From the NCBI GenBank assembly GCA_016790705.1, contig JAEUOT010000016.1, positions 1 to 43,576 of the forward strand: a stretch of 43,576 bases of DNA, written 5' to 3'. Of this stretch, positions 20,512 to 39,200 are shown piece after piece. A program made the position numbers and the translations under genes. Positions within the stretch are counted from its first letter, which is position 1, and the number at the start of each line of letters is the position of its first letter. Source of the DNA: Hydrogenophaga sp. (GTDB lineage Bacteria > Pseudomonadota > Gammaproteobacteria > Burkholderiales > Burkholderiaceae_C). The notes under the pieces were generated by a model that saw only the letters and a list, made by a program, of their open reading frames with translations, was not told where the DNA came from and did no database searches.

Positions 20512-21884
20512 CCGAAGTCGTTTCCCAACAAGAGATGCGCGATGCCTTTGCCATGTTCTATGGCATGGCGATGAGCCTGAAGGATCTGGCGCCGCCGCCC
20601 GAGCAACTGAGCGACCAGGAGCGCGTCTCGCGCGCCAAGGCGGTCTACCTCAAGGCGCTGGACAACGGCTTCGCCACGCAACTGGACGCCTGCGTCCACT
20701 GTGGCGCCTGCGCCCAGGCCTGCCAGTACTACATCGGCACCGAGGACCCGAAGTACACGCCGATCCACAAGCTGGACCTGATGAAACGGGTGTACCAGCG
20801 CGAGCTGTCGCCGCTGTCGTGGCTGCTAAAACCCTTCGTGCGGGACGTGACGGTCGAGGACCTGCACGAAGAACGCCACCTGGCCTTCGAGGCCTGCACC
20901 ATGTGCGGCCGCTGCAACATGGTCTGCCCGGCGGGCATCAACATCGCCGACATGGTGGCCGTCAACCGCGCGGCCCTGGCGCAGGCCGGGCTGATGCCGG
21001 ACGAGTTGCGCTTCATGGTCGCGGAACAGACCGCCGAAGGCACGATCTTCGGCGCCGACAAGGACCTGTTCCTGTTCCGCATCGGCGTGCTGGAAGAGAA
21101 GCTGGGCTTCAAGATCCCGATCGACAAGGAGAAGGCCGATGTGATGCTCGTCACCTCGGGCCTGGACATCCACCTGTTCTCCGACGCAACCGGCGGCGCG
21201 GTGGAAACCCTGCAGCACATGGGCGTGGACTACACGCTCTTGTCCGACGCCTACGAGGGCGCCAACTTCGGCGCGCTCGGTGGTGACGACGCGCTCAAGA
21301 AGAAGCTCACCAAGAAGCTGACCGAAGCGGCCATCCGCATCGGCGCCAAGACCGTGATCGTGCCCGAGTGCGGCCACAGCTTCCCGGCGCTGCGCTGGGG
21401 CGCGGCCGAGAGCGTGGGCCACGAGGTGCCGTTCGATGTGTCCACCGTCTCCGAGTATTTCGGCAAGGCGGTGATGGAAGGGCGCCTGAAGCTCCAGGCC
21501 AAGGACCACCCCGGCATCGTGGCGCTGCACGACCCCTGCAAGGTCGGGCGCTGGGGCGGTGTGTTCGACGAGCCGCGCGCCATCCTCAAGGCCTGCGGCT
21601 ACAACGTCAAGGAAACCGAGAGCTCGCGCGAACTCAACTTCTGCTGCGGTGGCGGCGCGGGCAACTTCCTGATCCAGGAGGCCGACCAGCTCAAGCGCGT
21701 CGGCTACCGCATCAAGATGGGCGAGATCGAGGCCACGGGCGCCGAGAAGCTGATGGTCTCGTGCGGTTCCTGCCGCATGAACTTCGAGGTCGGCAAGGTC
21801 AAGGCCGGTGACAGCATGCCGGTCGAAAGCCTGGCCGCCGTGATCGCGGCGCATCTTCCAGCCAACGAGGGAGCGAAGCAGTGA
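20508..21884 (+). CDS. isp2: Isp2, HdrD-like Fe-S protein
   Basis: A 458-aa cytoplasmic protein related to heterodisulfide reductase HdrD and GlpC. Two [4Fe-4S] sites are in the N-terminal part: CVHCGACAQACQ and CTMCGRCNMVCP. A CCG-type domain near the end has DPCKVGRWGG, NFCCGGGAGN and SCGSCRMNF. With Isp1 it would link periplasmic H2 oxidation to a cytoplasmic thiol or electron-carrier reaction. The physiological partner is not established. Confidence 0.88.
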   Translation: MTEVVSQQEMRDAFAMFYGMAMSLKDLAPPPEQLSDQERVSRAKAVYLKALDNGFATQLDACVHCGACAQACQYYIGTEDPKYTPIHKLDLMKRVYQRELSPLSWLLKPFVRDVTVEDLHEERHLAFEACTMCGRCNMVCPAGINIADMVAVNRAALAQAGLMPDELRFMVAEQTAEGTIFGADKDLFLFRIGVLEEKLGFKIPIDKEKADVMLVTSGLDIHLFSDATGGAVETLQHMGVDYTLLSDAYEGANFGALGGDDALKKKLTKKLTEAAIRIGAKTVIVPECGHSFPALRWGAAESVGHEVPFDVSTVSEYFGKAVMEGRLKLQAKDHPGIVALHDPCKVGRWGGVFDEPRAILKACGYNVKETESSRELNFCCGGGAGNFLIQEADQLKRVGYRIKMGEIEATGAEKLMVSCGSCRMNFEVGKVKAGDSMPVESLAAVIAAHLPANEGAKQ

Positions 21885-24158: not shown

Positions 24159-25655
24159 ATGCTGACCGCTCCCTTGTTCAACGCCGACGACCTGCGCCGC
24201 TGGCGCAGTTGTGAACGCCGCTTCTGGCTGGCGCGCCACCGCCTGCAGCGCGGCGATCCGGGCCCCGCGCCCGCACCACCGCCCGAGCTGGACGTGGCGC
24301 TGCGCGCCTCCTTCCCGCACGCCGACACCCTGGCCGCGCCGCAGACGCCGTCGCAATGGCTGCAGGCGATGCGCCACACGCTCGACTGCCTCGACAGCGA
24401 CGCCCCGCTGCCCGAGGGCTGGGCCATCCTCGGCGCCTGCCTGACCAGCGAAGACCGCGCCCAGGCGCGCATCGACGTGCTCAGCGCCGGACCGCACGGC
24501 CTGCGCGTGTTCAAGGTGCGCCAGGCCACCGCCGGCGACGAGTCCGACATCGACACCGTCGCGCTCTGGACCCACGTCGCCGCGCGCTGCGGCTTCGCGG
24601 TGCAGGGCGCCGGCCTGCTGCTGGTCGACACCGACTTCATCTACCCCGGCCACGGCTGCTACGCCGGCCTGTTCCGCGAGGTCGATCTGCGACCCGTGCT
24701 CGGCTCCCGCCCGGTGGCGCAGTGGCTGGACGCCATGCGCCACTGCGCTCACGGCGCCGAACCCGCCGCCACGCCCGGCCCGCACTGCCACCAGGGCGAA
24801 GGCTGTGAATTCGCCGCCAGTTGCAAGGCCTGCCCACCGCCCCCGGTCCACCGCCAGGACCCCGCCAGCCTCGACATCCTCGGCCGCGAAGCCGCCAGCG
24901 CCTGGCGCGCCCTCGGCCACCGCGACGTGCTCAGCCTGCGGCCGGACGACATCGAATCCCCCCGCCAGCGCCGCGCCGTGCGCGCGGTGCAGCAGGGCGC
25001 CCCGGTCATCGAACCCGCCGTCGCCGAGCTCGCGCGCCACTGGCCGCACCCGCACCACTGCCTGCGCTTCGACACCATCGGCATGGCGGTGCCCGTCTGG
25101 TCCGGCACACGGCCGTACCAGACCCTGCCGTTCCAGTGGAGCTGCGCCCGCGAGGAGGCCGATGGCCGCTGGAGCGACCACCACTTCCTGGCCGCCGGCC
25201 AGGGCAGCGACCCGCGCCGCGCCTTCGCCGAAACCCTGCTGCAGGTGCTGGGCACGCAAGGCGCCGTGCTGGCCTACAACGCCGGCTTCGAACGCAACCG
25301 CCTCCGCGAACTGGCCCAGTGGTTCGACGACTTCGCGCCCGCGCTCGACGCACTGCAGCCGCGCATCGTCGACCTGTTCCAGGTTGCCCGCGAACACTAT
25401 TACCACCCCGCCATGGCCGGCTCATGGTCCCTGCGCGCCATCGCCCGCGCCGTGGCCCCGGGCGTCAACATGGACGTCACCCTCGACCCCGCGCTCGGCG
25501 CCAAGGTCGGCCGCACCGCCCAGTCGGTCTACGCACTGATGGAGAAGCCCGGCCAGACCCTGCCGGTGCGCCACGCCTGCCGGGAAGCGCTGCAGGCGCA
25601 TGGGCGACGGGAGACGGAGGTGTTGCGGGAGTTGGTGGGGGTGATGGAGAGCTAG
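24159..25655 (+). CDS. DUF2779 protein with nuclease-like folds
   Basis: A 498-aa cytoplasmic protein of the DUF2779 type. The N-terminal half has a PD-(D/E)XK-like look, including a C-rich CHQGEGCEFAASCKAC segment typical of Fe-S nucleases. The C-terminal half has an RNase-H/DnaQ-like pattern: HHCLRFDTIGMAVP, then AVLAYNAGFERNRLRELAQW and RIVDLFQVAREHYY. The usual first acidic pair (DFET) appears here as FDTIG. It is not part of the hydrogenase operon and could be defensive; unproven. Confidence 0.75.
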   Translation: MLTAPLFNADDLRRWRSCERRFWLARHRLQRGDPGPAPAPPPELDVALRASFPHADTLAAPQTPSQWLQAMRHTLDCLDSDAPLPEGWAILGACLTSEDRAQARIDVLSAGPHGLRVFKVRQATAGDESDIDTVALWTHVAARCGFAVQGAGLLLVDTDFIYPGHGCYAGLFREVDLRPVLGSRPVAQWLDAMRHCAHGAEPAATPGPHCHQGEGCEFAASCKACPPPPVHRQDPASLDILGREAASAWRALGHRDVLSLRPDDIESPRQRRAVRAVQQGAPVIEPAVAELARHWPHPHHCLRFDTIGMAVPVWSGTRPYQTLPFQWSCAREEADGRWSDHHFLAAGQGSDPRRAFAETLLQVLGTQGAVLAYNAGFERNRLRELAQWFDDFAPALDALQPRIVDLFQVAREHYYHPAMAGSWSLRAIARAVAPGVNMDVTLDPALGAKVGRTAQSVYALMEKPGQTLPVRHACREALQAHGRRETEVLRELVGVMES

Positions 25656-25759
25656 GCCATAACAATCCGAAAAAGGATAAATAACGGTCTCTTAATCTTT
25701 AAATGTTCATTTATGGGCTTTTAGAAAGAAACCTGTTCCCTGGATACGTACAGATCACT

Positions 25760-25819
25760 AGAATCCGTTTTCGAACTGATAAAAGCCAGACCGGCTTTTA
25801 CGATCCATAAACGGATTCT
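25760..25819. promoter_or_regulatory. Nested palindromes, probable hipBA operator
   Basis: Outer arms AGAATCCGTTT (25760-25770) and AAACGGATTCT (25809-25819) are perfect 11-mers. Inside, TAAAAGCC (25780-25787) and GGCTTTTA (25793-25800) are perfect 8-mers. The outer arm ends one base before the hipB ATG, and no ribosome-binding site is visible. HipB proteins bind such repeats to repress their own operon. The sequence 25656-25820 is AT-rich compared with its surroundings. Confidence 0.65.
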
Positions 25820-25820
25820 T

Positions 25821-26132
25821 ATGGACCAGGCAAACACCACAGCCGAACTGCTGATGCATCTGGGCGAACAGCTCAGGGCCCAGCGCCTGCGCATGAACCT
25901 CACCCTCGACGAAGTGGCCCAGTCCGCGGGGGTGTCCATCAACGCTGTGCGCCGGCTGGAGGCCGGTGACGGCTCCTCGCTGTCGTCCTTCGTCTCGGTG
26001 CTCAAGGTCCTCGGGCGGGCCGACTGGTTGTCCACCCTCAAACCGGCGGTCACCATCAACCCGCTGGACATGCTGCGCCAGCGCGGCCCCCGCCAGCGCG
26101 CGCGCAAACCCCAGCAGCCCAAGGAAGACTGA
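25821..26132 (+). CDS. hipB: HipB-like antitoxin/repressor
   Basis: A 103-aa protein with an XRE-type helix-turn-helix (LGEQLRAQRLRMNLTLDEVA, then QSAGVSINAVRRLEAGDG) and a basic tail. It should bind the palindromes upstream and the HipA kinase downstream. The start ATG follows directly on the operator's outer arm. The gap to hipA is only four bases. Confidence 0.9.
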   Translation: MDQANTTAELLMHLGEQLRAQRLRMNLTLDEVAQSAGVSINAVRRLEAGDGSSLSSFVSVLKVLGRADWLSTLKPAVTINPLDMLRQRGPRQRARKPQQPKED

Positions 26133-26136
26133 CCCC

Positions 26137-27471
26137 ATGGCCACGTCCCGGCAAACACGGCAGAGCCCGTACAAGAGCGTCGACGCCATCGAGGTCCGCA
26201 TCTGGGGCCGACGCGTGGGCGCTGTCGCGCGAGAACCCACGCGCAACCACTACGCCTTCAGCTACGACCCGGCCTGGGTCCGCACGGGCATCGAACTGGC
26301 CCCGCTGCACATGCCGCTGGCGCAGGCCAGCGAACCCTTCCTGTTTGCCGACCTGCCCGAGGCCACGTACAAACGCCTTCCCGCCATGCTGGCCGACGCG
26401 CTGCCCGACGACTTCGGCAACGCCCTGATCGACGCCTGGATGGCCGAGCGTGGTCTGCGCAAGGACGCCATCACCGCCCTGGACCGCCTGGCCTACATGG
26501 GCAAACGCGGCATGGGCGCGCTGACCTTCGGCCCCATGCGCGGCCCCACACCCAGCAAACCCACCGCCATCGAAATGGGGCAACTGGTGGAAGCCGCGCG
26601 CAAGGCCGTGCAGGGCGACTTTGCCGGGGACGACCACGCCGCCACCGCCCTCAAACAGATCATCCAGGTCGGCACCTCGGCCGGCGGCGCGCGCGCCAAA
26701 GCCACCATCGCCTGGAACCCCGACACGCAAGAAGTGCGCACCGGGCAATTCGACATCCCGGCCGGCTTCGAGGCCTGGCTGCTCAAGTTCGACGGCGTCG
26801 GGCCCGACGCAGTGTTCGGCCCGTCCAGAAACTACGGCCGCATCGAATACGCCTACCACCTCATGGCCCGGGCCGCAGGCATCGACATGTCGCCCTGCCG
26901 CCTGCTGCAGGAAAACGGCCGTGCCCACTTCATGACCCGGCGCTTCGACCGCGACGGTGACCAGCGCCACCACATGCAGACCCTGTGCGCCCTGGCGCAC
27001 CTGGACTACAAGCAGATCGGCACCCACAGCTACAACCAGCTCTTCCAGACCGCCCAGGCGCTGAAGCTCGGGCGCGACGCGCTCGCGCAAATCCTGCGGC
27101 GCATGGTCTTCAACGTGCTCGCCGTCAACAACGACGACCACACCAAGAACTTCTCGTTCCTGCTGCGCGAAGGCGGCCGGTGGGAACTGGCGCCCGCCTA
27201 CGACATCACCCATGCCTATCGGCCCGACAGCGAATGGGTGCGCGAACACCAGATGTCGGTCAACGGCCGGTTCGACGGCATCACCCGCGCCGATGTGCGC
27301 GTGGTGGCCGAGCGCTTCGGCCTGCTGGCGGAGTTGCCCAAGGCGCTGGACGCCGTGACGGGCGCCGTGCGCCGCTGGGGTGAGTTCGCCAAAGAAGCCG
27401 GCGTGGCGGCGGAAGAGATCTCCACCATTGCGGGGCACATGGCTGAGCGGGAGCGGGTGTTTGGAGGGTAG
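26137..27471 (+). CDS. hipA: HipA-like serine/threonine kinase toxin
   Basis: A 444-aa HipA family kinase. HipA of E. coli phosphorylates glutamyl-tRNA synthetase to induce dormancy. Motifs: glycine-rich loop GTSAGGARAKATIAW, catalytic NNDDHTKNFSFLL, and metal-binding APAYDITHAY. Length is normal and no motif is broken, so it is probably functional. Substrate specificity cannot be told from the sequence. It is the last intact gene before the IS-scarred stretch. Confidence 0.92.
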   Translation: MATSRQTRQSPYKSVDAIEVRIWGRRVGAVAREPTRNHYAFSYDPAWVRTGIELAPLHMPLAQASEPFLFADLPEATYKRLPAMLADALPDDFGNALIDAWMAERGLRKDAITALDRLAYMGKRGMGALTFGPMRGPTPSKPTAIEMGQLVEAARKAVQGDFAGDDHAATALKQIIQVGTSAGGARAKATIAWNPDTQEVRTGQFDIPAGFEAWLLKFDGVGPDAVFGPSRNYGRIEYAYHLMARAAGIDMSPCRLLQENGRAHFMTRRFDRDGDQRHHMQTLCALAHLDYKQIGTHSYNQLFQTAQALKLGRDALAQILRRMVFNVLAVNNDDHTKNFSFLLREGGRWELAPAYDITHAYRPDSEWVREHQMSVNGRFDGITRADVRVVAERFGLLAELPKALDAVTGAVRRWGEFAKEAGVAAEEISTIAGHMAERERVFGG

Positions 27472-27595
27472 GGCTGCGAAGAGACTGTCGGTCAGGCAAT
27501 AGCCGCAGTGGCTGTCTGGAAATCAAGGGCGGGAAAAGGCTGGAAGCTGTCGCTCACCAAGTACTGCTTTTGGGAGACTCAGTACAGAACGACGA

Positions 27596-27706
27596 GTCCA
27601 AACGGCTGCGCACTTCGCCGCCATCCGGCCGCAAGAAGCGGATACAAATCATGGTCGTCACCAAATCCGGATGGCCCAGGAGTTTGCATATGGACACATG
27701 CTGACT
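27596..27706 (-). pseudogene. Remnant of an integron-integrase-like tyrosine recombinase
   Basis: The minus strand encodes ICKLLGHPDLVTTMICIRF followed by GGEVRSRLD. This resembles the C-terminus of IntI/XerC recombinases (xLLGHxDxxTTMIYTHV ... GGxGVRSPLD). The catalytic Tyr and the following His are replaced (MICIRF), and no upstream domain is left. It is therefore dead. Between hipA and here, 27472-27595 shows nothing else recognisable. Confidence 0.5.
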
Positions 27707-27779
27707 GGCTCCTCTCGGCCCGTTCAACAAGCGCCTTGCGGCCACGCCTACTGTACAGCCGCAAGACCGTGGGCTTGGG

Positions 27780-28291
27780 GCGTGCACGCGACACCGACGA
27801 CTGCGTGCACACGGCTCACCTGGCGCGCCGCACCGCGCTGGCAGAGTTCATCGGCAAGATGCTGTCCAAGCACGTGCTGAACGACGACAGCGGATCAACG
27901 CTTAAGGCCTCTACGGTACTGGGAATACGGGTGCAAACCCATCCTACTCGCGGCCCCGCGAGTGCGATTACAACGCCTACGCCGAATCCTTGTTCCGCAG
28001 ACCGACAAGTACCGCCCCGACCTTCCTGCCAAGGAATCTACAGACCTCCAGGCCACTCGGACCTGGGCAGCTGCGTACGTGCATTGGTACAACGACGTGT
28101 ATCGACACAGCGGCATCCGGTACGTCAACACTGGGCAGCGCCATTGCGGCGCAGATCAACTGATCCGGGCGGCTCGACGCACCCTCTACTCCAGAGCCGC
28201 AAGCGCAACCAGACGCGCTAGTCTGGCCCCACGCGCGACTGGGCGCCCAAGAGCGCACTCACCCTCAACCCCGAACCTGACTCGATCGTAA
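27780..28291 (+). pseudogene. Degenerate IS3-family transposase (orfB C-terminal half)
   Basis: Fragments in two or more frames line up with an IS3-type DDE transposase: ALAEFIGKMLSKHVLNDDSG for the ..LVLHSDNGS.. region, then TDKYRPDLP and AYVHWYNDVYRHSGIRYV for the conserved end, finally TLNPEPD. Frameshifts break the frame near 27935-27960 and again near 28200. No intact orfA was seen. It is an old insertion scar beside the AT-rich island. Confidence 0.75.
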
Positions 28292-28312
28292 CGGCACAAT
28301 CGGAAACAGAAC

Positions 28313-28335
28313 CTATGCAGCAGTTGGCTGCATAG
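28313..28335. terminator. Strong hairpin at the end of the minus-strand peptide gene
   Basis: CTATGCAGC and GCTGCATAG form a perfect 9-bp stem with a 5-base loop, 12 bp beyond the stop of the peptide gene at 28348. On the minus strand the hairpin is followed by GTTCTGTTTC, T-rich but not a clean run. It is probably the terminator of the minus-strand transcripts. Confidence 0.5.
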
Positions 28336-28347
28336 ATGAGGCCAAAA

Positions 28348-28554
28348 CTACCTTGACGCACGCCGCTCAGATGTCATGGGCAAAGTCCTCTTTTGAGCGA
28401 CGGCCATTCCGACCTCCGCACCAGCGTGGACAAGAAAGATTCGGTCAAGAGACTTGCCTTCAGAAGACTCATCGATGGGCGTGAGCGACAGCTCTTGCTC
28501 CATCCCACCTGAGACCAAATAGATCTTTTCAAGCTTCAAGTCAACGCTATCCAT
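28348..28554 (-). CDS. Small repeat-containing peptide, possible second RiPP precursor
   Basis: A 68-aa peptide with an excellent ribosome-binding site (GAGGAG) and its own promoter. Two related segments occur 26 residues apart: LEKIYLVSGGMEQE and LDRIFLVHAGAEVG, fitting L-(E/D)-(K/R)-I-(Y/F)-L-V-x-(G/A)-G-x-E. The C-terminus is basic. Its size, internal repetition and position beside modifying enzymes suggest a precursor peptide, or a small partner of the SelO-like enzyme. I know no family for it. It could also be a plain regulatory peptide. Confidence 0.6.
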   Translation of the reverse strand: MDSVDLKLEKIYLVSGGMEQELSLTPIDESSEGKSLDRIFLVHAGAEVGMAVAQKRTLPMTSERRASR

Positions 28555-28584
28555 GACATCTCCTCGATAAAATGGGACGGGAAA

Positions 28585-28614
28585 ATTTTAATCGAACAGG
28601 CGAGCGCCTGTCAA
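28585..28614 (-). promoter_or_regulatory. Sigma-70 promoter with a palindromic operator in its spacer
   Basis: On the minus strand, a perfect -35 TTGACA (28614-28609), an 18-bp spacer and -10 TAAAAT (28590-28585, five of six matches). The palindrome ACAGGC-GAGC-GCCTGT (28596-28611) overlaps the -35 and fills most of the spacer, as repressor sites often do. It lies between the SelO-like gene and the peptide gene, so the peptide is made separately from the enzymes. The same palindrome could act as a weak terminator. Confidence 0.65.
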
Positions 28615-28621
28615 CATTGGG

Positions 28622-29890
28622 TTATGAAATTTTGCCATGACTGACGAGATCCACTGCATCGTGGATGAACTTATCAATACTCCCTTGAAGCTGCATTCGG
28701 TCTAGTCGTCCCGATGCATACTCCGAGGTTAGGTCAAAAGCGAAGTGTGTTATATCGGTAACACGGTAAGTTTCTTCAACACCGAAATGAGCTGCCTCGA
28801 CAGCAGTTAGATTTCTAAGTCTCATTAATCGTCCCAAAGGTGTATCCTCACGGCTGCCATTACAGCCCATCAACGCCTCTACGTCATGGTCACCACCCCA
28901 ATTCAAAGGGCGATCAGCAACCATACAGAGAAGGCGATCAATCCTTGAATCTACCTCGCAGTAATGACCAAAATCAACAAGCTGGCAACGAATAGGATTA
29001 AGATCTACATGTCGGGTTAATTGAACGTTGATTCCACCAAATACGATTCTTTGACCGCAGCTTAGACTCTTGCCAATTTTTCTCAGAACTAACTCCGTTT
29101 CGTCTTCACCCAGTCCATCGACAGGGTGCCCGCCATACAACGAACTCACCCTCCCGTCAGCACCGCGCTCTATTTGAAAGGTGGTCATCGGAGTAACGGA
29201 GCTGATGCCAAACCTGCGCAAAACTAACTCAAGTTGAAGCTGAGCGTGGTGTGCATTAGAATTAAATGCAGGCAGATCAATACCTCCGACTGGTCGGCGA
29301 TGACCCTGCCTTACTAACGCGGCACAAGGCAAGGGACGGCGAATCTCTGGAATCCATCCTTCAAAACCAAGATCAATAATGCCATACACCGGAACTCCAG
29401 AAACATCGTAATTCAATGCCTCCATCACACCCTCCACTATCCGTTGGTTTACCAACTCCTCAATTGCAAGTGGCAGCGGGAGTATGCCTGTTGCATGGTT
29501 GCGGAGTATCGGCTCCGACTTAGGTCCGACGCCTTTGACGTCAAAGATTCCTCGAAACAGTTGCAACGAATCATCTTGAGAAGGGCGAGCAAATTCTATG
29601 ACGAGAGAACGACCATACCGAGGGGGGCGAAAAACCTCGACAGAATCACCGTAGGGCACAAAACTGACAACTTGGTTCGGTCTCGTGAGGGACTCCGACA
29701 CGACCGCCGCATTCGAAAGAACAAACTCTTGAGACTGCTCGATTCTCAGATCTGGAAAATCTTGTGCAAGCAAGTTGTGGTTAGTCCACAAGAGGCTTGC
29801 CGAAATTGCACGGCGCGCCGTTTCCCATTCGCCAAGCGGCTCGTCAAGCTCATTCACAGATTTTGGACGATCAATCGACATGGATTTCAT
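28622..29890 (-). CDS. Divergent SelO/YdiU-like protein (AMPylase-type pseudokinase fold)
   Basis: A 422-aa protein. Its motif order follows SelO: YGRSLVIE, then FDVKGVGPKSEP (SelO has ..LKGAGLTPYSR), a helix LAIEELVNQRIVEGVMEAL, PCAALVRQGH, and GGINVQLT...LVDFGHYCEVD, where SelO has N(T/S)DNMS...IDYGPFGF. SelO transfers AMP to Ser/Thr/Tyr. Here the catalytic asparagine segment is altered, so the chemistry may differ. The start ATG at 29890 overlaps the pentapeptide gene by 20 bases; 29881 is an alternative. The assignment is by eye and tentative. Confidence 0.5.
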   Translation of the reverse strand: MKSMSIDRPKSVNELDEPLGEWETARRAISASLLWTNHNLLAQDFPDLRIEQSQEFVLSNAAVVSESLTRPNQVVSFVPYGDSVEVFRPPRYGRSLVIEFARPSQDDSLQLFRGIFDVKGVGPKSEPILRNHATGILPLPLAIEELVNQRIVEGVMEALNYDVSGVPVYGIIDLGFEGWIPEIRRPLPCAALVRQGHRRPVGGIDLPAFNSNAHHAQLQLELVLRRFGISSVTPMTTFQIERGADGRVSSLYGGHPVDGLGEDETELVLRKIGKSLSCGQRIVFGGINVQLTRHVDLNPIRCQLVDFGHYCEVDSRIDRLLCMVADRPLNWGGDHDVEALMGCNGSREDTPLGRLMRLRNLTAVEAAHFGVEETYRVTDITHFAFDLTSEYASGRLDRMQLQGSIDKFIHDAVDLVSHGKIS

Positions 29891-30542
29891 ACACGGCGAG
29901 GAGCTCGGATGCTTGTGAAGCAGAGATGATGGCCCCCTTAAACGTGTTGGCATCAGCAATGGAAAACGTGCCTAGGTCACAACCGCGCAGATCCGCTCCG
30001 CGGAAATTCGCTGACTTTAGTGAGGCTCCTCGAAGGCTACAATTAGTAAAGACTGCATCACGAAAATCTGCACCAGCCAAATCCGCATCCGAGAAATTTA
30101 GCCCATCCAGTTTTTGTTTGCGAAACGAGAAACCTCTGAGAGCACAACTCACAAGAAGGCACTCGTGGAACTCTAAACCCAGAGATTTTATCTCAGCGAA
30201 AGTTGCACCAGTAAGCTTTGTTTCCTCAAATCTTGCCGCAGACAATCTTGCACCTCTCCAGTTGGAGTTAGACAAATTGCATCCGACAAACTTGGCTTCC
30301 GAGCAATCTGCGGCTAGATATTCGGCTCGTTCAGCAACGCAGTTGTGGAACTTGCAGCCTGTGAAATCAGTACGAGTAAAATTAACACCTTCAAAACGGC
30401 ACCCCCTAAAACAAGAGCCTGATAGATCGAGTTCAGACAGATCTACACTAGAAAGATCAAGCTCCAGAAACTCTCGTTCGTCGTTAATATATTTTTCCAG
30501 CAAAGAATCACGCGAAGAATATACTAGCATAGTCAACGCCAT
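29871..30542 (-). CDS. Pentapeptide-repeat protein, Qnr-sized
   Basis: A 223-aa right-handed beta-helix protein. From about residue 25 nearly every fifth position fits A(D/N)LXX: LSSVDLSELDLSGSCF, RTDFTGCKF, FSDADLAGADFRDAVF, SANFRGADLRGCDL. Length and the helical tail (GAIISASQASELLAVYEI) resemble Qnr and McbG/AlbG proteins, which mimic DNA and protect gyrase. In a peptide locus this could be self-immunity, but that is inference. It overlaps the carbamoyltransferase gene by 10 bases. Confidence 0.88.
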   Translation of the reverse strand: MALTMLVYSSRDSLLEKYINDEREFLELDLSSVDLSELDLSGSCFRGCRFEGVNFTRTDFTGCKFHNCVAERAEYLAADCSEAKFVGCNLSNSNWRGARLSAARFEETKLTGATFAEIKSLGLEFHECLLVSCALRGFSFRKQKLDGLNFSDADLAGADFRDAVFTNCSLRGASLKSANFRGADLRGCDLGTFSIADANTFKGAIISASQASELLAVYEIHVD

Positions 30543-32143
30543 TTATCATTTTTAACGAGATAGCCACTACGAAATGCGAGTATATCCAGGCCGCTTCTGT
30601 AAAACGTTGCTAGGGCTTGATCTGGTTTCAATACCATGGGTTCGTCATTAAGATTAAAACTTGTGTTTAGCAAAACAGGGACTCCTGTCAAGCCCAAAAA
30701 GTTTTCGAGTATCTCGGATAAGAAACTGCCATCGGGCACGGCATGCGCACGGGCTGTCCCATCCACATGAACAACTGCCGGCACTGCTTCTTGCCATTCT
30801 GCAAAGACATCACTCGAAACAGTCATCGTGGTCGTCGCGTGCTTACAAATAGTAGAAGTAAATCGTGTTAGTATTGAAGGCGCAAACGGTCTCCAAGATT
30901 CGCGTCGTTTCACAAGGGAATTTACTCTGTCTCTGCTTTGAACGGTTCTTGGGTCTGCGAGAATACTCCTGGCACCAAGAGCTCGTGGCCCAAACTCAGC
31001 CCGTCCGTCGAAAATTCCTACAACAGCACCAGAGGCAAGCGCGGAGGCAATACGACCAACTACATCTCCCTTGGTCAGTCGCAAGTTCGCAAAAGAAATG
31101 GCAGCGTCAACATCCCCGTCTGAGTAGTTCGGTCCCCAGAATGGCGTGTCTGCCAAACAGCCCAATCCAACTCTCTCACCAGACTCTTGGCTCGCGGAGA
31201 ATGCAGCGCCAATCGAAACGCCTGAATCACTCGAAGCAGGATGGACATAAAGTTGATCGATAAACGGTTGTTCGAGTAGCTTCCCATTGGCGACGCAATT
31301 CAACGCGACCCCGCCGGCAAGGGCAAAGGTACTCAAACCTGTTTGCTCATGAACCCGCTCAGCACATCGAAGAACCGCTCTCTCCAAATACCACTGCGCC
31401 GTTGCTGCTAGTGCGATGTGATTAGGCTGAATAGGATCCGCGCTCGCCCGCTGAGGGAAGTTGTCTTGAAGGTACTCAAAATACGCTGAAACGTCTGGAA
31501 GCGCACTTTGCTGGTCGCAAAGGTCAGGTAGTACTGACGAATCTGGTTTTCCGAACGCAGCCAGCCCCATAGTCTTCCCTTCATCGGAATGGGGGGAAAA
31601 ACCAAGCCGTGCCGTTACCAGTTGATAGAAGAGCCCTATGCTATGGTTGACTGGGACTCTCCACAGCTCCTTAAGTTGACCGCAAGAGTCAGCAACGAAA
31701 GCTGCACCAGCGCTGTCCCCGCCCCATCCATCAAGGACCAAGATGTTCCCTGCGGAGGACCTTAAGTAAGGCAGAACGCTCAAGGCATGAGCTTCGTAGT
31801 GGTCAATGCGGTGTTGCTTCACTCCAAGCCAGTTCAGCCGTGAATCATGAAAACGGTACGCAAGCCGCATGTCTCCTAGGAAACGACGCAAACGGCTGCC
31901 TAGCTGCGCATTCCAAGCTGTTGAAGGCTCGGTGAATCCGACTGAAATACTACTTAGATCCTTAATGCTGAGGCCCGCATCTCTGAGGAGGGCTTCGATT
32001 GAACGAGTTGGTATCGCGTTCAGTGCGTGCTTCTGACGCGTGAAACGCTCCTCTTCATAGATGCCTTTTAGCTTCCCGTCATGGATCAGGCAAGCTGCTA
32101 CGTCCGCTCCGATGGGATGTGTAAGGCCTAGGTGCGCAGTCAT
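30533..32143 (-). CDS. Carbamoyltransferase (NodU/TobZ/CmcH family)
   Basis: A 536-aa enzyme that transfers a carbamoyl group from carbamoyl phosphate, through carbamoyl-AMP, to a hydroxyl of a natural product. N-terminal Kae1-like domain: LGLTHPIGADVAACLIHDGK, EEERFTRQKH, VLDGWGGDSAGAAFV. C-terminal signature: GRAEFGPRALGARSILADPR, then RESWRPFAPSIL. The ATG at 32143 gives the family's normal start; 32173 is possible, but neither has a clear ribosome-binding site. It is divergent from the peptide operon by about 50 bp. Confidence 0.93.
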   Translation of the reverse strand: MTAHLGLTHPIGADVAACLIHDGKLKGIYEEERFTRQKHALNAIPTRSIEALLRDAGLSIKDLSSISVGFTEPSTAWNAQLGSRLRRFLGDMRLAYRFHDSRLNWLGVKQHRIDHYEAHALSVLPYLRSSAGNILVLDGWGGDSAGAAFVADSCGQLKELWRVPVNHSIGLFYQLVTARLGFSPHSDEGKTMGLAAFGKPDSSVLPDLCDQQSALPDVSAYFEYLQDNFPQRASADPIQPNHIALAATAQWYLERAVLRCAERVHEQTGLSTFALAGGVALNCVANGKLLEQPFIDQLYVHPASSDSGVSIGAAFSASQESGERVGLGCLADTPFWGPNYSDGDVDAAISFANLRLTKGDVVGRIASALASGAVVGIFDGRAEFGPRALGARSILADPRTVQSRDRVNSLVKRRESWRPFAPSILTRFTSTICKHATTTMTVSSDVFAEWQEAVPAVVHVDGTARAHAVPDGSFLSEILENFLGLTGVPVLLNTSFNLNDEPMVLKPDQALATFYRSGLDILAFRSGYLVKNDKWR

Positions 32144-32145
32144 AG

Positions 32146-32173
32146 TTGCATTTGTTGCACTTTTCGCTATCAT
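32146..32173 (+). promoter_or_regulatory. Probable sigma-70 promoter of the peptide operon
   Basis: TTGCAT (32146-32151), 16 bases, TATCAT (32168-32173), followed by AAGGAGG (32183-32189) and the peptide ATG at 32197. TTGCA occurs twice in this stretch (32146-32150, 32155-32159). The region is short and must also serve the divergent carbamoyltransferase gene. Confidence 0.4.
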
Positions 32174-32196
32174 AAGGGCCACAAGGAGGTCTGCCA

Positions 32197-32418
32197 ATGT
32201 CATCCAGTTCACATTCCGAAAACGCCCTGCGTCGCGCTGCCACCGCGAGCGAGGCTGCAGCAATGCTTAGCCAATCGACCTACTCGGGAACCGTTGAGGC
32301 TGTTCCAGTCGCCCCGAACCTCAAGATGCTTCGCTCGGCAACAGAGGCGGCGATGGAGTTGAGTCAGTCAACCTACAGTGGGACGGTCGAAGGCATCTCT
32401 CCACCTGCTTCAGTTTAA
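32197..32418 (+). CDS. Probable RiPP precursor peptide with two identical core motifs
   Basis: A 73-aa peptide, too short for an enzyme, with an ideal AGGAGG ribosome-binding site. Residues 24-34 and 55-65 are the same 11-mer, LSQSTYSGTVE, each preceded by an Ala-rich helix-like segment (SEAAAM, TEAAME). The two DNA copies differ at nine of eleven codons with no amino-acid change. This is the pattern of a modified core under selection. The stop overlaps the next gene's start (TAATG). I know no family with this motif; Ser, Thr and Tyr are the obvious modification sites. Confidence 0.8.
   Translation: MSSSSHSENALRRAATASEAAAMLSQSTYSGTVEAVPVAPNLKMLRSATEAAMELSQSTYSGTVEGISPPASV
32266..32298 (+). 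repeat. Core repeat 1 of the precursor (residues 24-34)
   Basis: It encodes LSQSTYSGTVE. It differs from the second copy at 12 of 33 bases, all silent. Confidence 0.85.
32359..32391 (+). repeat. Core repeat 2 of the precursor (residues 55-65)
   Basis: It encodes the same 11 residues as the copy at 32266, mostly with different codons. The offset between copies is 93 bases (31 residues). Confidence 0.85.
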
Positions 32419-33614
32419 TGAGCGCCGTCCTCAGGGCGGCGCCGTTTCTTTGGCGGCGGGAGTATTTTGGCTGCTTTTTGTGGTCCAAGGACAGAAGCGC
32501 GTTCTTCAAGCTTGAGGGTCAAGACGCGCTAGTGTGGTCGTTGGTCAGGTCAGGGGTGCCCGTTCCCGACATTGTCTCCGCACATGCCCGAACGCTCCCC
32601 GGACTCTCAGACCTGCAAGAGGTTGATCGAAGTATCGCTCGGCTCCTGAGCGCGGATCTACTTCTTCTTGGGGCCTCTCCTGAGCCCGAAACCGGTCTAC
32701 TCGAGGCCTACGAGGCGTTTCATTTATTCAGACCCAAAGTCGCCACATCCAAACCTGTGTGGGTGCACCTTCAGCCTTTCACATTTTGCAATCTAAGCTG
32801 TAGTCACTGCTACTGCAACAGTTCTCCCAGCGCCTCCAAGTTTCGCCTGGATATTCAAGTCTGGAGGGATCTCATCAGAAGATTTGATGAATACGGGATA
32901 GCTGAGGTATTCATCACAGGAGGAGAAACAACCCTATTGGATGGGGCTTGGGAGCTACTTGCTGAGATTCGTTCGCGAGGGATGGGTACTGGAATCAGTA
33001 CAAACGCCGTTTTAGTAACACCGACAATCCTTGATCGTTTAAGGGAGCTGTCGATTACTCGAGTTCAGGTGTCAATCGATGGGTGCGAGAAGACTCACGA
33101 GTTCTTTAGGGGACGCCAGGGTCAGTTCCACAAAACAATTTCAAATATTGCCAAACTAGCCTCTATCGCAGAGCCTGTTATAAATACGACGGTAAACCAA
33201 CTAAACCTACACGAACTTGACGGGATAGTTAAGATTGGCAAAAGTGCAGGTGCACGGAAGTTTAAATTCTTTCCTCAAAAACGGACAGGTAGAGCGGCCT
33301 CACTTTGCGATTTGGCGCTGTCGGACAAAGAAATCTTGGGTGAATTGGCCTCTTCCTGCCGAGAGCTAAGTGAACGCCATGGTGTAGATATTGAGACGAC
33401 TACACCAAATGACCTATGTGGCTCAGGGCGCTCCGGATTCGCCGTCGATGAAATTGCCGATGTCTACCCATGCATCTTTGGAATTGGGTCCTTATCTCAG
33501 CGCGCCGGGAATTTGCTTCAAGACTCAATAGATGATCTCTGGTTTGATGCGCAAGTTATGGTGGATTTCCGCAAGCGTGTTGCCCAACCTTGTCATAACT
33601 GCGAAGATCTATGA
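32418..33614 (+). CDS. Radical SAM peptide-modifying enzyme with RRE-like N-terminus
   Basis: A 398-aa enzyme. Residues about 10-85 resemble a PqqD/RRE domain that grips a leader peptide (FGCFLWSKDRSAFFKL, ALVWSLVRSGVPVPDIVSAH, IARLLSADLLLL). The radical SAM triad is C124, C128, C131 (CNLSCSHC). A partial SPASM region has CGSGRSGFAVDEIADVYPC (C334, C352) and ends with CHNC (C392, C395); the usual further cysteines are missing. Such enzymes make C-C, C-S or C-O crosslinks or epimerise residues. It is coupled to the precursor by TAATG. Confidence 0.9.
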   Translation: MSAVLRAAPFLWRREYFGCFLWSKDRSAFFKLEGQDALVWSLVRSGVPVPDIVSAHARTLPGLSDLQEVDRSIARLLSADLLLLGASPEPETGLLEAYEAFHLFRPKVATSKPVWVHLQPFTFCNLSCSHCYCNSSPSASKFRLDIQVWRDLIRRFDEYGIAEVFITGGETTLLDGAWELLAEIRSRGMGTGISTNAVLVTPTILDRLRELSITRVQVSIDGCEKTHEFFRGRQGQFHKTISNIAKLASIAEPVINTTVNQLNLHELDGIVKIGKSAGARKFKFFPQKRTGRAASLCDLALSDKEILGELASSCRELSERHGVDIETTTPNDLCGSGRSGFAVDEIADVYPCIFGIGSLSQRAGNLLQDSIDDLWFDAQVMVDFRKRVAQPCHNCEDL

Positions 33615-34963
33615 CGTCCGTGTTTCTGGTTTCTCCTGATTTTTTCAGAGCCTCGCTTAAAAAAAAGGTAGTTGACGGCGAACTGCTTGCAGTGGCAGCC
33701 GCTCTAAAAGATGCAGGATTTCCAGTGTCGATATTCGATGCATATCGCTCGAAAGAGTCCCCTTGGACCACTCTTCTGGATCAGCTAAATCTAGTTCATT
33801 CACCGATTCTTTTTGTTCATCTTTGGAAAGTTGAAGCCCTGGAAGGTGAAGCCAATCGAGTAATTTCTGAAATTTCAGCCATTAGGCGCACCATACCTAA
33901 TCTTCGTGTTGTAGGCTTTGGATACTTGGCTAGGGCGCTTAAGACACAGCTGCCTAGCAGCGGCGGCTTCGATGCAATTGCGGATGCTGATGGATCTGAG
34001 GTTTTCTCCTCGGACGAACAGAGTAGCGATTTCAAGAGAGCGACACAGGTGCTATCTTTGAGCCTAGCCGGAAAACAAACGTCAAATCTGGCTGTAATGG
34101 CTGAACACCTTGCCACCACGACAGGTAAGGATGATGTCGTCTCAATTCATGCAAGCCGCGGGTGTCGAGCTAGATGCACGTTTTGCACTTACAACGCCGA
34201 CCTAAGCAAAGGCTGGATGCCCAGAAGTATCAATTCTATCGCTGACGATATTGAAACTGTGCTTCAAAACTCGTCTGCCTCAAAGATTGCATTCTATGAC
34301 AACGATTTTGGAGGAAGCTTAGATGAGCTGGAGTACCGCACCTCTCAATTAGAGTCGATTCTGCGAGCAAGGAATCTTCTCGGCAGAGCAACTTTCTCAA
34401 TGAATGTGCGGTCCGATTGTCTTTCGGAACGTAGTCTTTTTTCCATGCGTGCCATTGGCGTACGAACAATTCTCGTTGGACTTGAGTCCTTCAATGAAGA
34501 TACTCGCCTAAAGCGTTTTGGCAAGATTTTGGATATCACACACCTTCGTCGAATGGTCGCACTTTGCGATAATCTCGATATTGAAATACTCCTGAGTTAT
34601 ATTCTCTGGCACCCGTGGCAAAATCCGGAAGGCTTGAAAGAAGAAGTTAAACTAATTCAGGAAATCGGCCGCCATCGAATTCCCCAACTCCTTACTCGCA
34701 GTATTTTGCGTGTCGTACCGGGAACTCCTGTAGCACATCTATTAGGATTTGAAAAGATACAAGCTTCCCAAGCTACTACCTTCATGTTTAAGGTGCCGGA
34801 AACTGAAAGACTATACAGCCGAATGAACCAGTGGCTTGAAGATCGATTGAAAAATATAAACAATGCTGGCTTACTTCATGGGCCGGAGCGTTTCGAAACT
34901 TTGGCAACTTTGAAGCTTGATGAGCTTGATTACTATCAGCAGACTCTTCTAGAATCACTATGA
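33611..34963 (+). CDS. Second radical SAM enzyme, B12-binding-like N-terminus
   Basis: A 450-aa protein. Residues 1-150 look like a Rossmann B12-binding domain (VFLVSPDFFR, LLAVAAALKDAGFPVSIFDA), though the cobalamin DXHXXG motif is not obvious. The radical SAM triad is C185, C189, C192 in SRGCRARCTFCTYN. Then IAFYDNDFGGS and VRTILVGLESFNEDTRL fit the B12-radical SAM (BchE-like) layout. It may methylate or otherwise alter the peptide. It overlaps the first radical SAM gene and the DUF2164 gene by ATGA. Confidence 0.85.
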   Translation: MTSVFLVSPDFFRASLKKKVVDGELLAVAAALKDAGFPVSIFDAYRSKESPWTTLLDQLNLVHSPILFVHLWKVEALEGEANRVISEISAIRRTIPNLRVVGFGYLARALKTQLPSSGGFDAIADADGSEVFSSDEQSSDFKRATQVLSLSLAGKQTSNLAVMAEHLATTTGKDDVVSIHASRGCRARCTFCTYNADLSKGWMPRSINSIADDIETVLQNSSASKIAFYDNDFGGSLDELEYRTSQLESILRARNLLGRATFSMNVRSDCLSERSLFSMRAIGVRTILVGLESFNEDTRLKRFGKILDITHLRRMVALCDNLDIEILLSYILWHPWQNPEGLKEEVKLIQEIGRHRIPQLLTRSILRVVPGTPVAHLLGFEKIQASQATTFMFKVPETERLYSRMNQWLEDRLKNINNAGLLHGPERFETLATLKLDELDYYQQTLLESL

Positions 34964-35223
34964 CTGAACTAAGCAAGGATGCCCGAAAGGTAGCAATAGC
35001 CTCTATTCAGAGGTACTGCAAGGAAGAACTAGATTTTCCGATTGGGAACTTACGCGCAGGTGGCCTCTTGGATTTTTTTACAACCGAGATTGGATCAATA
35101 ATCTACAATCATGCGCTACACGATATGCAAGAATCGTTACTCGCAAGGACTGACGATGCAGTCTCAGAACTTCGGATCGAGGAACTTTCGTATTGGAAGC
35201 GCACATCGCCGCCAAAGAACTGA
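34960..35223 (+). CDS. DUF2164 protein
   Basis: An 87-aa protein with KDARKVAIASIQRYCKEELD, then FPIGNLRAGGLLDFFTTEIG and SIIYNHALHDMQ, which I recognise as DUF2164. The family is widespread, usually as a lone chromosomal gene of unknown function. Here it is coupled by ATGA to a radical SAM gene, an unusual place, suggesting a subunit or leader-binding role. The final residues EELSYWKR match the family's usual tail. Confidence 0.82.
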   Translation: MTELSKDARKVAIASIQRYCKEELDFPIGNLRAGGLLDFFTTEIGSIIYNHALHDMQESLLARTDDAVSELRIEELSYWKRTSPPKN

Positions 35224-35648
35224 GCCTAATCAAGCCTTTTAGTTTCCCGCTCTTAGTTAAGAACCAGTTTACTTCGGAAGTTTGAGTACTGCGTGGAGTA
35301 GAGGCCGGTCTGGAGTGGGTTGTGGCACGGTGCGTCGAGATTGCCTATGCCTTAGTGAAAAATCGGCCCTCGAGAGCGCGCTCTGCGGCAACCTTCACTT
35401 CTGCCAGTCTTGATGTTGCGCTTCAGGGAGGCTGCCGTCAGGTGGGATACAGGCAAGTATTAGGGATGAACTGCGCGCCGCATCTACCCAACCCATTGCT
35501 CCTGCGGACGGCGGCGCCGACCGTGCGAATGTTGAGCGACCGCTTGCTGGCAACGAGTTCTGCAAAGCGGAGGACCGCACCCGCTGCAGAACAGCCATTG
35601 ACCACAACGCGCTGATCTGTCCCTGCGTGGCGCCCGCGGCTTTCGCCC
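35224..35648. other. Intergenic stretch, right edge of the AT-rich island
   Basis: No convincing gene or RNA was found. Base composition returns to the high GC of the nif region within this stretch. Short open frames on both strands show no family resemblance. It may hold decayed mobile DNA, but I could not match any part of it. Confidence 0.5.
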
Positions 35649-37036: not shown

Positions 37037-37560
37037 GGCGTGGTCTCCGTCGGGTGGGTGGGGGAGCGGGTGGCCTTGCGCAGCAGTTGCAGGCATTCGA
37101 GGCTGGCGGCCATGTCGAGCGCGCTGAAGTCGTCCTGCGTGACGAGCCGCGGGTTGGCGCCCAGGGCCAGCAGGGTGGCGACCACGCCGGCCTTGCCGCT
37201 GGAGGCGGCGTACATGAGCGCGGTGGCGCCGGTGAGGTTGGCGTGGTCGATGGGCACGCCGTGGGACACCAGGGTGCGGATGGCCTCCGGCTCGCCGTGC
37301 ACACAGGCCAGCCAGAGCGCGTTGTTGCCGTCGCCGTTAATGGCGTCCAGCGGCACCTTGAGCGCGAGCAGCTCGTCGAGCCGCTCGCGCTCGCCGCGCC
37401 AGGCGGCGTGCATGAGCGGGGTGTTGCCGTGTGCGCCGGGCGCGTCGGGTCGGGCGGGGTCGAAGCCTTCGGCCCGCAGCCAGTCGGTCAGGACGGTCGG
37501 CTCGCCCATGCCGGCGCGTGCCTGCTCGGGGGGCGGTCGGGTCGAGGGCGGGGTGGTCAT
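37033..37560 (-). CDS. Ankyrin-repeat protein
   Basis: A 175-aa protein with about four ankyrin repeats: GNTPLMHAAWRGERERLDEL, GNNALWLACVHGEPEAIRTL, GATALMYAASSGKAGVVATL, DFSALDMAASLECLQLL. Ankyrin repeats bind other proteins. It is coupled by overlaps to the nitroreductase-like gene and to nifO, so it probably acts in nitrogenase control or repair; the partner is unknown. Confidence 0.88.
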   Translation of the reverse strand: MTTPPSTRPPPEQARAGMGEPTVLTDWLRAEGFDPARPDAPGAHGNTPLMHAAWRGERERLDELLALKVPLDAINGDGNNALWLACVHGEPEAIRTLVSHGVPIDHANLTGATALMYAASSGKAGVVATLLALGANPRLVTQDDFSALDMAASLECLQLLRKATRSPTHPTETTP

Positions 37561-39200
37561 GGGTGGCTCCGGGCCGGTTGGATGGGGTGGGCCAGATGGG
37601 CATACGGCGCTTCGGTGCCGATGCGGCCGTCGCTCAGCGGGGCGCCGACGGTGAAGTGGTAGACGGTCTGCAGCGCGGCGCTGGCGGCGGGCGCGGGCAG
37701 GCCCAGGAGCTGGTGCAGGGCGTCGTCGAAGAAGCAGCCGATGCCGGTGCCGCGCAGGCCGGCGGCCTCGGCTTCGAGGTAGAGCGCCTGGCCGATCAGG
37801 CCAGCTTCCTGCAGCCGGTCGCGGTAGTTGGCGGGGTCGCCGAGCGGCTGGAATTCGGCCAGCAGGGCGAAGGCGACGACGGCGTCCGAGCCCAGGGCCT
37901 GGTGGCAGTTGAGGGTGCGCAGTGTGCCGGCCAGGGCGGGGTTGTCGGCCAGGTGCCGCAACGGCGCGTCGGCGGGCGCGCCGGGCACCGGCAAGAGGTC
38001 CAGCGCCTCGGGCAGTTGCTGGCGCAGCAGGGCGAGCCCGCTGTCGCTGCGCGGCAGCAGGTAGGCGCCGGGCGCGAGACCGTCCACGCGGTGCGCGAAC
38101 AGCAGCACATGCACGCGGGCCGGGCCGGGCGCGGCGTCGAAGGGCAGTCGGTCCGGGTGCAGGGCCCGCAGCAGCGGCCAGAGGCGCTCCAGCGTCGTGC
38201 GGGCGCGCGGGTCGAAGCGCTGGGCGCTGCGGCGCTGGCGGATCAGCGTGGCGGTGTCGGCCGAGGCAGCGGTTTGGGCGTCCGTCGCGACGGGCGATGC
38301 GGGGGCGGGCGTGGCGTGCGGCGACGAGGACAGGGCGCTGGACGTCCGCTGGGTGGCGCGGGTCACCTCGTCGATCACCGGCCAACGGTACATGGGGTGG
38401 CGATCCAGCCGGTTGGCCTGGCCTTGCCAGGTGGCGTGGGCGGTCCACGACCAGGGCGCGTCGTCCGGTGTCGCGTCGCGGTCGCCGGACAGCAGCTCGA
38501 ACAGGGCGTCGGGTTCCTCGCGCTCGGCGGCGCCGAAGTCGGCGTCGCGGTCCAGGCCGAGCAACTGCGCCAGCGCCGCGTTGTCGCAGGCCACCGGCCG
38601 CAGGCGCCAGCCCAGCAGCGCGGCGGCGTAGCGCAGCGCGCCGGTGGCGTGTCCGGCGTCGAGCTGGCAGTAGCGGAAGGCGCGTTCGCCGTACTTCCAG
38701 GCTTCGCGCCAGGCGATGCTGCTGAGCGCGACGAAAGCGCGGGCCGGTCCGGTGGCGGGGCCAGCGGTGGCGCGCTGTTCGAGCGCGTGTTCGTGCGGCG
38801 CGTAGTGGTGCAGGCCATCCGACAAACCCGACACACCCCGACAGAGCAGCCAGCCTTCGGTGGGGTGCAGGTTGCCGCTGGAGGGGTTGATGCGCACGGC
38901 CCAGCGGTCGGGGCCCTGGGTTTTCCAGGCGGCCAGGGCCAGGCTGTGTTCGAACAGCAGGCCGATGCCCTGACGGTCCAGCGCCTGCGCGGGCACCCGG
39001 CCCGGCCGGCCCAGGTCGGACCAGTCCACCGCAGGCGCCGGTGTGTCCAGCGGCAACGCAGCCAGCGGGGCGCCGATGTAGCGGCGGAAGGGATCGGGCT
39101 GGGCATCCCAGTCGAGCGTGTCGGGCCCGGCGGCGTAGCGCTCCAGCCGGTGCTTGGTCCGCTCGTGGTAGGCCTGAACGACCGCCAGCGCCTCAGCCAT
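37557..39200 (-). CDS. Double-domain nitroreductase/SagB-type flavoprotein
   Basis: A 547-aa protein made of two nitroreductase-like halves. The first has WAVRINPSSGNLHPTEGWLL and YCQLDAGHATGALRYAAALLGW. The second has LIRQRRSAQRFDPRART and YLEAEAAGLRGTGIGCFFDD. They are joined by an Ala/Ser/Pro-rich linker near residue 300. SagB-type enzymes use FMN, but no YcaO or peptide partner is adjacent, and the genes around it are draG and the ankyrin gene. It overlaps draG by 8 bases. The role in nitrogen fixation is unknown. Confidence 0.85.
   Translation of the reverse strand: MAEALAVVQAYHERTKHRLERYAAGPDTLDWDAQPDPFRRYIGAPLAALPLDTPAPAVDWSDLGRPGRVPAQALDRQGIGLLFEHSLALAAWKTQGPDRWAVRINPSSGNLHPTEGWLLCRGVSGLSDGLHHYAPHEHALEQRATAGPATGPARAFVALSSIAWREAWKYGERAFRYCQLDAGHATGALRYAAALLGWRLRPVACDNAALAQLLGLDRDADFGAAEREEPDALFELLSGDRDATPDDAPWSWTAHATWQGQANRLDRHPMYRWPVIDEVTRATQRTSSALSSSPHATPAPASPVATDAQTAASADTATLIRQRRSAQRFDPRARTTLERLWPLLRALHPDRLPFDAAPGPARVHVLLFAHRVDGLAPGAYLLPRSDSGLALLRQQLPEALDLLPVPGAPADAPLRHLADNPALAGTLRTLNCHQALGSDAVVAFALLAEFQPLGDPANYRDRLQEAGLIGQALYLEAEAAGLRGTGIGCFFDDALHQLLGLPAPAASAALQTVYHFTVGAPLSDGRIGTEAPYAHLAHPIQPARSHP

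Follow-up and report, generated by a model that had tools for sequence, protein, structure and literature searches.

What is encoded by a low-GC block of eight open reading frames (ORFs) in a contig of Hydrogenophaga sp. (GenBank JAEUOT010000016.1)? The block, called the island here, occupies positions 28348-35223 of the window, that is, of the whole 43,576-nucleotide stretch that was analysed. It is probably a horizontally acquired locus of the ribosomally synthesised and post-translationally modified peptide (RiPP) type, in which both operons serve one product and a 73-residue precursor is matured by a radical S-adenosylmethionine (SAM) enzyme with a SPASM domain. Judging from its genes, the right operon very likely encodes a new variety of radical SAM RiPP module; the left operon probably has a tailoring, regulatory or protective part.

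The first-pass annotation described an AT-rich block of eight ORFs in two divergent, coupled operons. The ORFs, their limits and their arrangement all stand, and GC content between 28 and 35 kb is 0.45-0.55 versus about 0.70 elsewhere. Third-position GC (GC3) is similarly displaced, at 0.41-0.61 in island genes compared with 0.92-0.95 in three host genes. Because GC and GC3 fall so far below host values, the island is regarded, on its composition, as a horizontally acquired foreign block. Coupling holds for seven of the eight genes. On the plus strand, the precursor and SPASM genes overlap by 1 base, the SPASM and second radical SAM genes by 4, and the second radical SAM and DUF2164 genes by 4. 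On the minus strand, the carbamoyltransferase and pentapeptide-repeat genes overlap by 10 bases and the pentapeptide-repeat and SelO-like genes by 20 (with the SelO-like start at ATG 29890). The 68-residue ORF overlaps nothing and begins 67 bases after the SelO-like gene. The operon starts are separated by 54 bases, and a promoter-like sequence (10/12) overlaps the precursor start. Across the region, promoter-like sites occur at chance level (6 observed, 5.6 expected), as do terminator-like hairpins (7 observed, 7.3 expected). What ties the left operon to the right one is its position, the shared intergenic region and a shared base composition, in one genome. The window contains no tRNA (ARAGORN) and no Rfam family at gathering score.

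The strongest single result for the RiPP reading is the silent-only divergence of the repeats in the candidate precursor. The 73-residue peptide, whose ATG lies 7 bases after its AGGAGG ribosome site, contains LSQSTYSGTVE twice, in copies 31 residues apart. Comparison of the two 33-base units shows differences at 12 of 33 bases, spread over 9 of 11 codons; all of them are silent, leaving 11 of 11 residues identical. Simulation of 180,000 sets of 12 random changes, under three transition biases, kept at most 9 of 11 residues. Since the residues are identical despite 12 silent base differences, both repeat copies are maintained by selection acting on the peptide. The annotation's observation that both small peptides bear repeats also survived shuffling: the best 12-residue self-match of the 73-residue peptide scores 53 against a shuffle maximum of 37, and that of the 68-residue peptide (LEKIYLVSGG / LDRIFLVHAG) scores 32 against 28, with 0 of 1000 shuffles as good in either case. 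The precursor comprises 15 Ser, 6 Thr, 2 Tyr and a single Lys outside the repeats, and has no Cys or Trp. Just after its stop lies a GC-rich hairpin; the fold of 32410-32450 reaches -20 kcal/mol (z -3.9), with 1 of 200 shuffles equally stable. The hairpin is of the kind that a leaky terminator favouring precursor over enzyme would have.

The enzyme encoded directly after the precursor has the features of a peptide maturase. Its SPASM domain (PF13186) scores 23.5 bits against a cut-off of 21.5, and its CxxxCxxC motif is intact (CNLSCSHC at 124). Matches in the PDB run from SkfB (2.9e-24) to SuiB (8.6e-7), with other radical SAM proteins between, and the SuiB match extends over the N-terminal part too. 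SkfB and SuiB are peptide maturases, of the sactipeptide SKF and of streptide, respectively. When residues 1-112 were aligned (hhalign) with a profile of 30 PqqD domains, the score was 22.98 (P 4e-4), compared with maxima of 15.8 for 200 shuffled profiles and 18.3 for 200 shuffled queries, and with 8.4-13.7 for five other window proteins. At profile level, this supports a RiPP recognition element (RRE)-like domain at the head of the SPASM enzyme; RREs occur in many RiPP loci, though not in all. The second radical SAM protein matches TIGR03471 (HpnJ) at 5.3e-18 and TIGR04072 (B12-class) at 1.5e-15 over residues 27-378, and its CxxxCxxC motif is likewise intact (CRARCTFC at 185). With core repeats under selection, an RRE-like domain and two intact radical SAM motifs, the proposal of a peptide-maturation (RiPP-type) locus was supported.

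The closest known arrangement is that of SkfB/SuiB-type loci, in which, as in the island, the precursor gene directly precedes the gene of a SPASM enzyme whose N terminus is RRE-like. In contrast to those systems, the island precursor is a two-core peptide without Cys or Trp and without Lys in its repeats, and the island adds a second, B12-class-like radical SAM gene together with carbamoyltransferase, pentapeptide-repeat and SelO-like genes. The features of the island and its edges are listed below.

Features of the island and its edges, in window positions, with the evidence behind each assignment
Feature	Position	Strand	Evidence
Decayed IS3-family transposase remnant, left edge	27751..28350		77% to Hydrogenophaga plasmid
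Terminator-like hairpin, 11 pairs, 3' of 68-residue ORF	28311..28337	-	Folding
Second small peptide, 68 residues, imperfect internal repeat	28348..28554	-	GAGGAG before ATG; repeat beyond shuffles
Promoter-like TTGACA-18-TAAAAT, 11/12	28585..28614	-	Motif scan; such sites at chance number
SelO-like pseudokinase (tentative), 422 residues	28622..29890	-	Profile versus 30 SelO proteins; start ATG 29890 or 29881
Pentapeptide-repeat protein, 223 residues	29871..30542	-	PF00805 1.6e-33
O-carbamoyltransferase, TobZ/NodU type	30533..32143	-	PF02543/PF16861; start ATG 32143 (ATG 32173 or TTG 32263 possible)
Candidate precursor peptide, 73 residues, two LSQSTYSGTVE repeats	32197..32418	+	AGGAGG; silent repeat differences; stop overlaps next ATG
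Radical SAM/SPASM peptide maturase, PqqD-like (RRE) N-terminal domain	32418..33614	+	PF04055 4.4e-21, PF13186
GC-rich hairpin, attenuator-like, at SPASM gene start	32422..32442	+	9 pairs, 8 G-C
Second radical SAM protein, HpnJ/BchE/B12-class similarity	33611..34963	+	PF04055 4.8e-8
DUF2164 protein, 87 residues	34960..35223	+	PF09932 2.8e-21

Pfam matches uphold the family labels given earlier to the two radical SAM enzymes, the carbamoyltransferase, the pentapeptide-repeat protein and the DUF2164 protein. The carbamoyltransferase is full length, and its closest PDB entry is TobZ (4.2e-76). It contains the family motif strings that were looked for, with one His replaced by Tyr in the HHxAHA run relative to TobZ, and its closest plasmid-borne relatives are NolO/NodU-type proteins at about 36%. 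Pentapeptide-repeat proteins occur in peptide loci, as with McbG, and the PDB matches of the island protein include both designed and natural members of the family, among them Qnr and MfpA. Unlike those, it falls far under the curated cut-offs, with 65/360 bits for MfpA, 57/240 for Qnr and 87/260 for HetL. An immunity role, as proposed in the annotation, thus found no direct support. The HetL similarity and the DUF2164 assignment were set aside as clues to function, neither being specific; a second DUF2164 gene lies elsewhere in the same genome.

The SelO-like label fared less evenly. The start of this protein was set at ATG 29890, although the ORF listing gives TTG 29959. There was no NCBIfam match, no PDB relative (best E 0.75) and no Pfam match at a limit of E 10, a limit at which HMMER nevertheless discards most matches above about E 0.1; assignment to the Pfam SelO family (PF02696) was accordingly rejected. 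A profile built from the protein and two relatives does align over its full length with a set of 30 SelO proteins, scoring 26.6 against a mean of 15.5 and a maximum of 22.1 for 100 column shuffles, and 16.7 for the reversed profile. Published SelO motifs include WHLK, HGVMNTDN and DYG/DFG (PMC12599244, in the part of the source available). Colinear with the AMPylating SelO pseudokinases, the island protein has GR, KGxG, the following helix and DFG in register, with the Lys of FDVK standing for that of WHLK/LHLK. It differs in that the HGVMNTDN loop has no clear counterpart, FGGINVQL lying nearby. Because the match is visible with the three-sequence profile and not with single sequences, the label remains tentative.

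At the far end of the left operon, the 68-residue peptide may serve as another substrate or have a regulatory role. The hairpin 3' of it folds at -15.7 kcal/mol (z -3.1, with 2 of 200 shuffles as stable over 41 bases; z -2.1, with 5 of 200 over 61 bases).

We infer every chemical step of the following scheme, and the joint action of both operons on one product. The SPASM enzyme would hold the 73-residue precursor via its N-terminal RRE-like domain and modify the core by radical chemistry, the guess being a crosslink that involves or adjoins Tyr, Thr or Ser. The second radical SAM enzyme would add a further carbon-centred change, after which the carbamoyltransferase would cap core hydroxyls. 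O-carbamoylation is likelier than the lysine type because Ser, Thr and Tyr abound in the precursor but its one Lys lies outside the repeats. The SelO-like protein might adenylylate the peptide or an intracellular target, or bind nucleotide as a regulator, and the pentapeptide-repeat protein probably protects the producer's own target. The annotation's suggestion that the carbamoyltransferase and SelO-like protein decorate this particular peptide gained no direct support.

Carbamoyltransferases do have precedents in RiPP pathways. The crocagin pathway includes the carbamoyltransferase CgnI, and shares with the island a RiPP-type locus with such an enzyme. It differs in having CgnB, CgnC (a predicted dioxygenase), CgnE, the protease CgnD and the methyltransferase CgnL, with no radical SAM or SelO-like protein mentioned in the available portion of the source (PMC10070186). 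Similarly, StdF is a NodU-like carbamoyltransferase acting on a ribosomal peptide; in contrast to the island enzyme, it carries a fused peptidase domain and acts on Lys, and its partners in the part of the report available are YcaO-TfuA and MNIO proteins rather than radical SAM enzymes (PMC13174530). RREs fused to carbamoyltransferases have also been noted (PMC12710340), so that further RiPPs with enzymes of this kind can be anticipated.

The combination had been called undescribed in the annotation, and among the open-access literature matches listed there was indeed no locus uniting radical SAM, carbamoyltransferase and SelO, although CgnI and StdF show that one of its elements is familiar in RiPPs. 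No open-access paper was found that brings together radical SAM, cobalamin, SPASM, carbamoyl and RiPP. For SelO with RiPP nothing relevant was listed; the one co-mention, from what is available of it, is a kinase-orthology method paper. If the operons act together, the island would specify a carbamoylated radical SAM RiPP and place a SelO-like enzyme in a peptide pathway, neither of which was met in the open-access literature examined. In addition, the SPASM enzyme and the 73-residue peptide offer a small, testable entry point of two genes, in which the repeated core is precisely delimited.

Relatives of the island were sought in genome samples that cover a small part of the known genomes in each group. 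Searches of plasmids gave no near DNA match to the island, no relative of the precursor and none of the second radical SAM protein (at 1e-15). Plasmid matches of the 68-residue peptide (E 0.9-8 only) were taken as chance, and the single plasmid match of the SPASM enzyme at 1e-20, a halophile pseudo-SAM protein covering half of the query, was dismissed as a locus relative. The second radical SAM protein was matched in none of 249 other genomes of the family at 1e-12; in the phylum sample, matches at E ≤ 1e-12 came from 13 of 397 other genomes, the best at 1.3e-16 and 26%, and were read as general class similarity. The SelO-like protein has relatives at 25-28% identity on Rhizobium phaseoli plasmids (two records) and in Mesorhizobium sp. 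NFR06. Sampling of the order gave no relative in 299 other genomes and that of the phylum gave one in 397 others; among 279 genomes of the Mesorhizobium order there was none beyond the Mesorhizobium genome itself. The scan of genome contigs, which used two short patterns from the three-sequence alignment and has low sensitivity, matched 66 stretches, one of which is a relative. No relative of the SelO-like protein was found in phages, and viral contigs searched with it, the second radical SAM protein and the precursor gave a few pattern matches, none of them a relative. In the Rhizobium locus, two genes directly 5' of the SelO-like gene (L005:7962-9999) have no Pfam or PADLOC match.

To the left of the island lie a DUF2779 gene and hipBA-like genes, followed by the IS3 remnant, where an IS3 family transposase is annotated in 1 of the 10 matching records listed, of 19 matching; to its right lies a YkgJ-like cysteine-cluster gene, named by reading of the sequence. 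The GC3 of hipA is 0.87. The hipB-like and HipA genes (window 25821-27471) are present as about 90% identical DNA in the same place in one sibling genome (G914). In agreement with the genus assignment, another sibling genome (G049) is identical to plasmid NZ_CP044976.1 of Hydrogenophaga sp. PBL-H3 over the 15,001 bases compared. Among the 66 other Hydrogenophaga genomes sampled, 13 gave a match to right-flank DNA. Twelve of these loci (L029 and L105-L115) were compared, one with a 266-base match only being excluded, and none of the 12 sibling stretches shares DNA with the island (E ≤ 1e-5). In six, left-flank DNA is also in view, with 2.4 to 11.1 kb of other sequence between the flanks; in L113 this includes hipBA-like DNA. 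On these comparisons the site (window 25655-35648) is a cargo hotspot beside the YkgJ-like gene in Hydrogenophaga, with contents differing among siblings.

Sibling contents were surveyed in cargo-like ORFs beside the right flank, with nine proteins from seven loci plus L029 scanned against Pfam and the same set plus L105 against PADLOC. Matches came from six loci: an Mrr type IV restriction enzyme in L114 (PADLOC 3.8e-73), a metallophosphatase of the candidate defence family PDC-S60 in L108 (PADLOC 2.6e-16), a UvrD-like protein in L109 (1.2e-7 to a NERD+UvrD model), an Mrr_cat-nSTAND1 protein in L107 (Pfam 5.8e-9 and 3e-8, PADLOC 3.1e-4), a SEC-C protein in L029 (Pfam 8.4e-9), and a weak Aga-type match in L111 (3.2e-4). 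One protein scanned from each of L112, L113 and L105 had no match. From reading of the ORFs, the cargo of L110 looks metabolic and that of L115 of sugar/glycan type; L105 and L106 have no low-GC block. As a control, ten host proteins from the window were scanned, and three of them likewise match PADLOC at E ≤ 1e-3 (best 1.2e-7); less weight was then given to PADLOC matches as evidence that the spot is a defence site. L114 and L108 alone stand clearly above this control, and the case for L107 comes from its Pfam domains. The cargo genes of L112 (2352-3779) and L113 (2312-4321) encode 475 and 669 residues at GC 0.49 and 0.56, respectively, with no Pfam or PADLOC match (E 0.001), and are possibly unknown defence genes.

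A number of observations weigh against a RiPP locus in which both operons serve one product. None of the eight island ORFs encodes a protease or a transporter/exporter, although many RiPP loci rely on host proteases. The HHalign probability of the PqqD match is 35%, and Pfam gives no PqqD hit for the N-terminal part of the SPASM enzyme. Neither a Pfam B12 domain nor DxHxxG occurs in the second radical SAM protein, and its cobalamin dependence was not taken as established. Island DNA occurs in 1 of 67 genomes of the genus, its own, and is absent from the 66 others; with no second copy, the two operons are seen together in a single case. Both SelO-like relatives have no carbamoyltransferase, radical SAM or pentapeptide match within about 10 kb on each side (tblastn E ≤ 0.01). 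As to whether the genes stand separately in relatives, which the annotation had named as grounds for doubt, the SelO-like gene does so over about 20 kb in these two cases, and no second whole set was found in the samples searched. Lastly, in some siblings the hotspot is occupied by genes of restriction type or of candidate defence families, and a role other than that of an antibiotic would suit this just as well.

These observations bear on three other explanations. The island could be two independent cargoes, in which the radical SAM RiPP genes on the right happen to share an intergenic region with an unrelated left-hand module of carbamoyltransferase, pentapeptide-repeat, SelO-like and 68-residue genes. 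The solitary SelO-like relatives point this way, as do the promoter- and terminator-like elements that the 68-residue ORF has of its own and the habit of the site of receiving different cargoes in siblings. Nevertheless, the operons start 54 bases apart with the promoter-like sequence (of a kind present in chance number) at the precursor start, they share the same low GC3, and a chance juxtaposition of two tailoring-type operons is the less simple account; we consider this explanation rather unlikely, if a serious one. Far less probable still is that the island is decaying or inactive passenger DNA without present function. Its presence in one of 67 genomes and the decayed IS3 remnant at its edge would suit such a fate, but eight intact ORFs, intact motifs and the silent-only difference between the core repeats speak against it.

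An intracellular anti-phage or abortive-infection system, in which a modified peptide would be the effector, the pentapeptide-repeat protein its antidote and the SelO-like protein a sensor or switch, is improbable on present evidence. The Mrr, PDC-S60, Mrr_cat-nSTAND1 and UvrD-like proteins at the same spot in siblings, the adjoining hipBA-like genes and the want of an exporter are all compatible with it, and one SelO-like relative, in Mesorhizobium, lies about 5 kb from a PbeC-like gene and about 7 kb from a PbeA-like gene. However, PADLOC is unspecific at the threshold used, and of the six island proteins (of eight) scanned with it, only the SPASM enzyme matched, and it did so through viperin models to which the nifB-like host gene responds too. 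The apparent metabolic and sugar/glycan-type cargoes of two siblings are equally out of keeping with a defence spot. Moreover, class II lanthipeptide clusters are reported to have defence genes in their vicinity (PMC12715929), so location by itself is no proof of defence. In its most specific form, which we hold to be equally improbable, the product would be an in-cell RiPP effector with two cores, matured by the radical SAM pair, armed by carbamoylation and switched by the SelO-like protein (possibly by AMP transfer), with the pentapeptide-repeat protein as a mimic shielding the host target; its genes would travel as cargo of a site that receives defence genes as well. The RiPP locus with both operons serving one product remains the explanation we prefer.

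The wider window has nitrogen-fixation and hydrogenase (nif/hup) character: it carries a nifB-like gene (356-1948), the small and large subunits of a NiFe hydrogenase (18758-19861 and 21881-23599) and nifH (42037-42918). Near the nif genes, a 547-residue protein with a C-terminal nitroreductase domain (37557-39200) is possibly SagB-like, although this is a guess.

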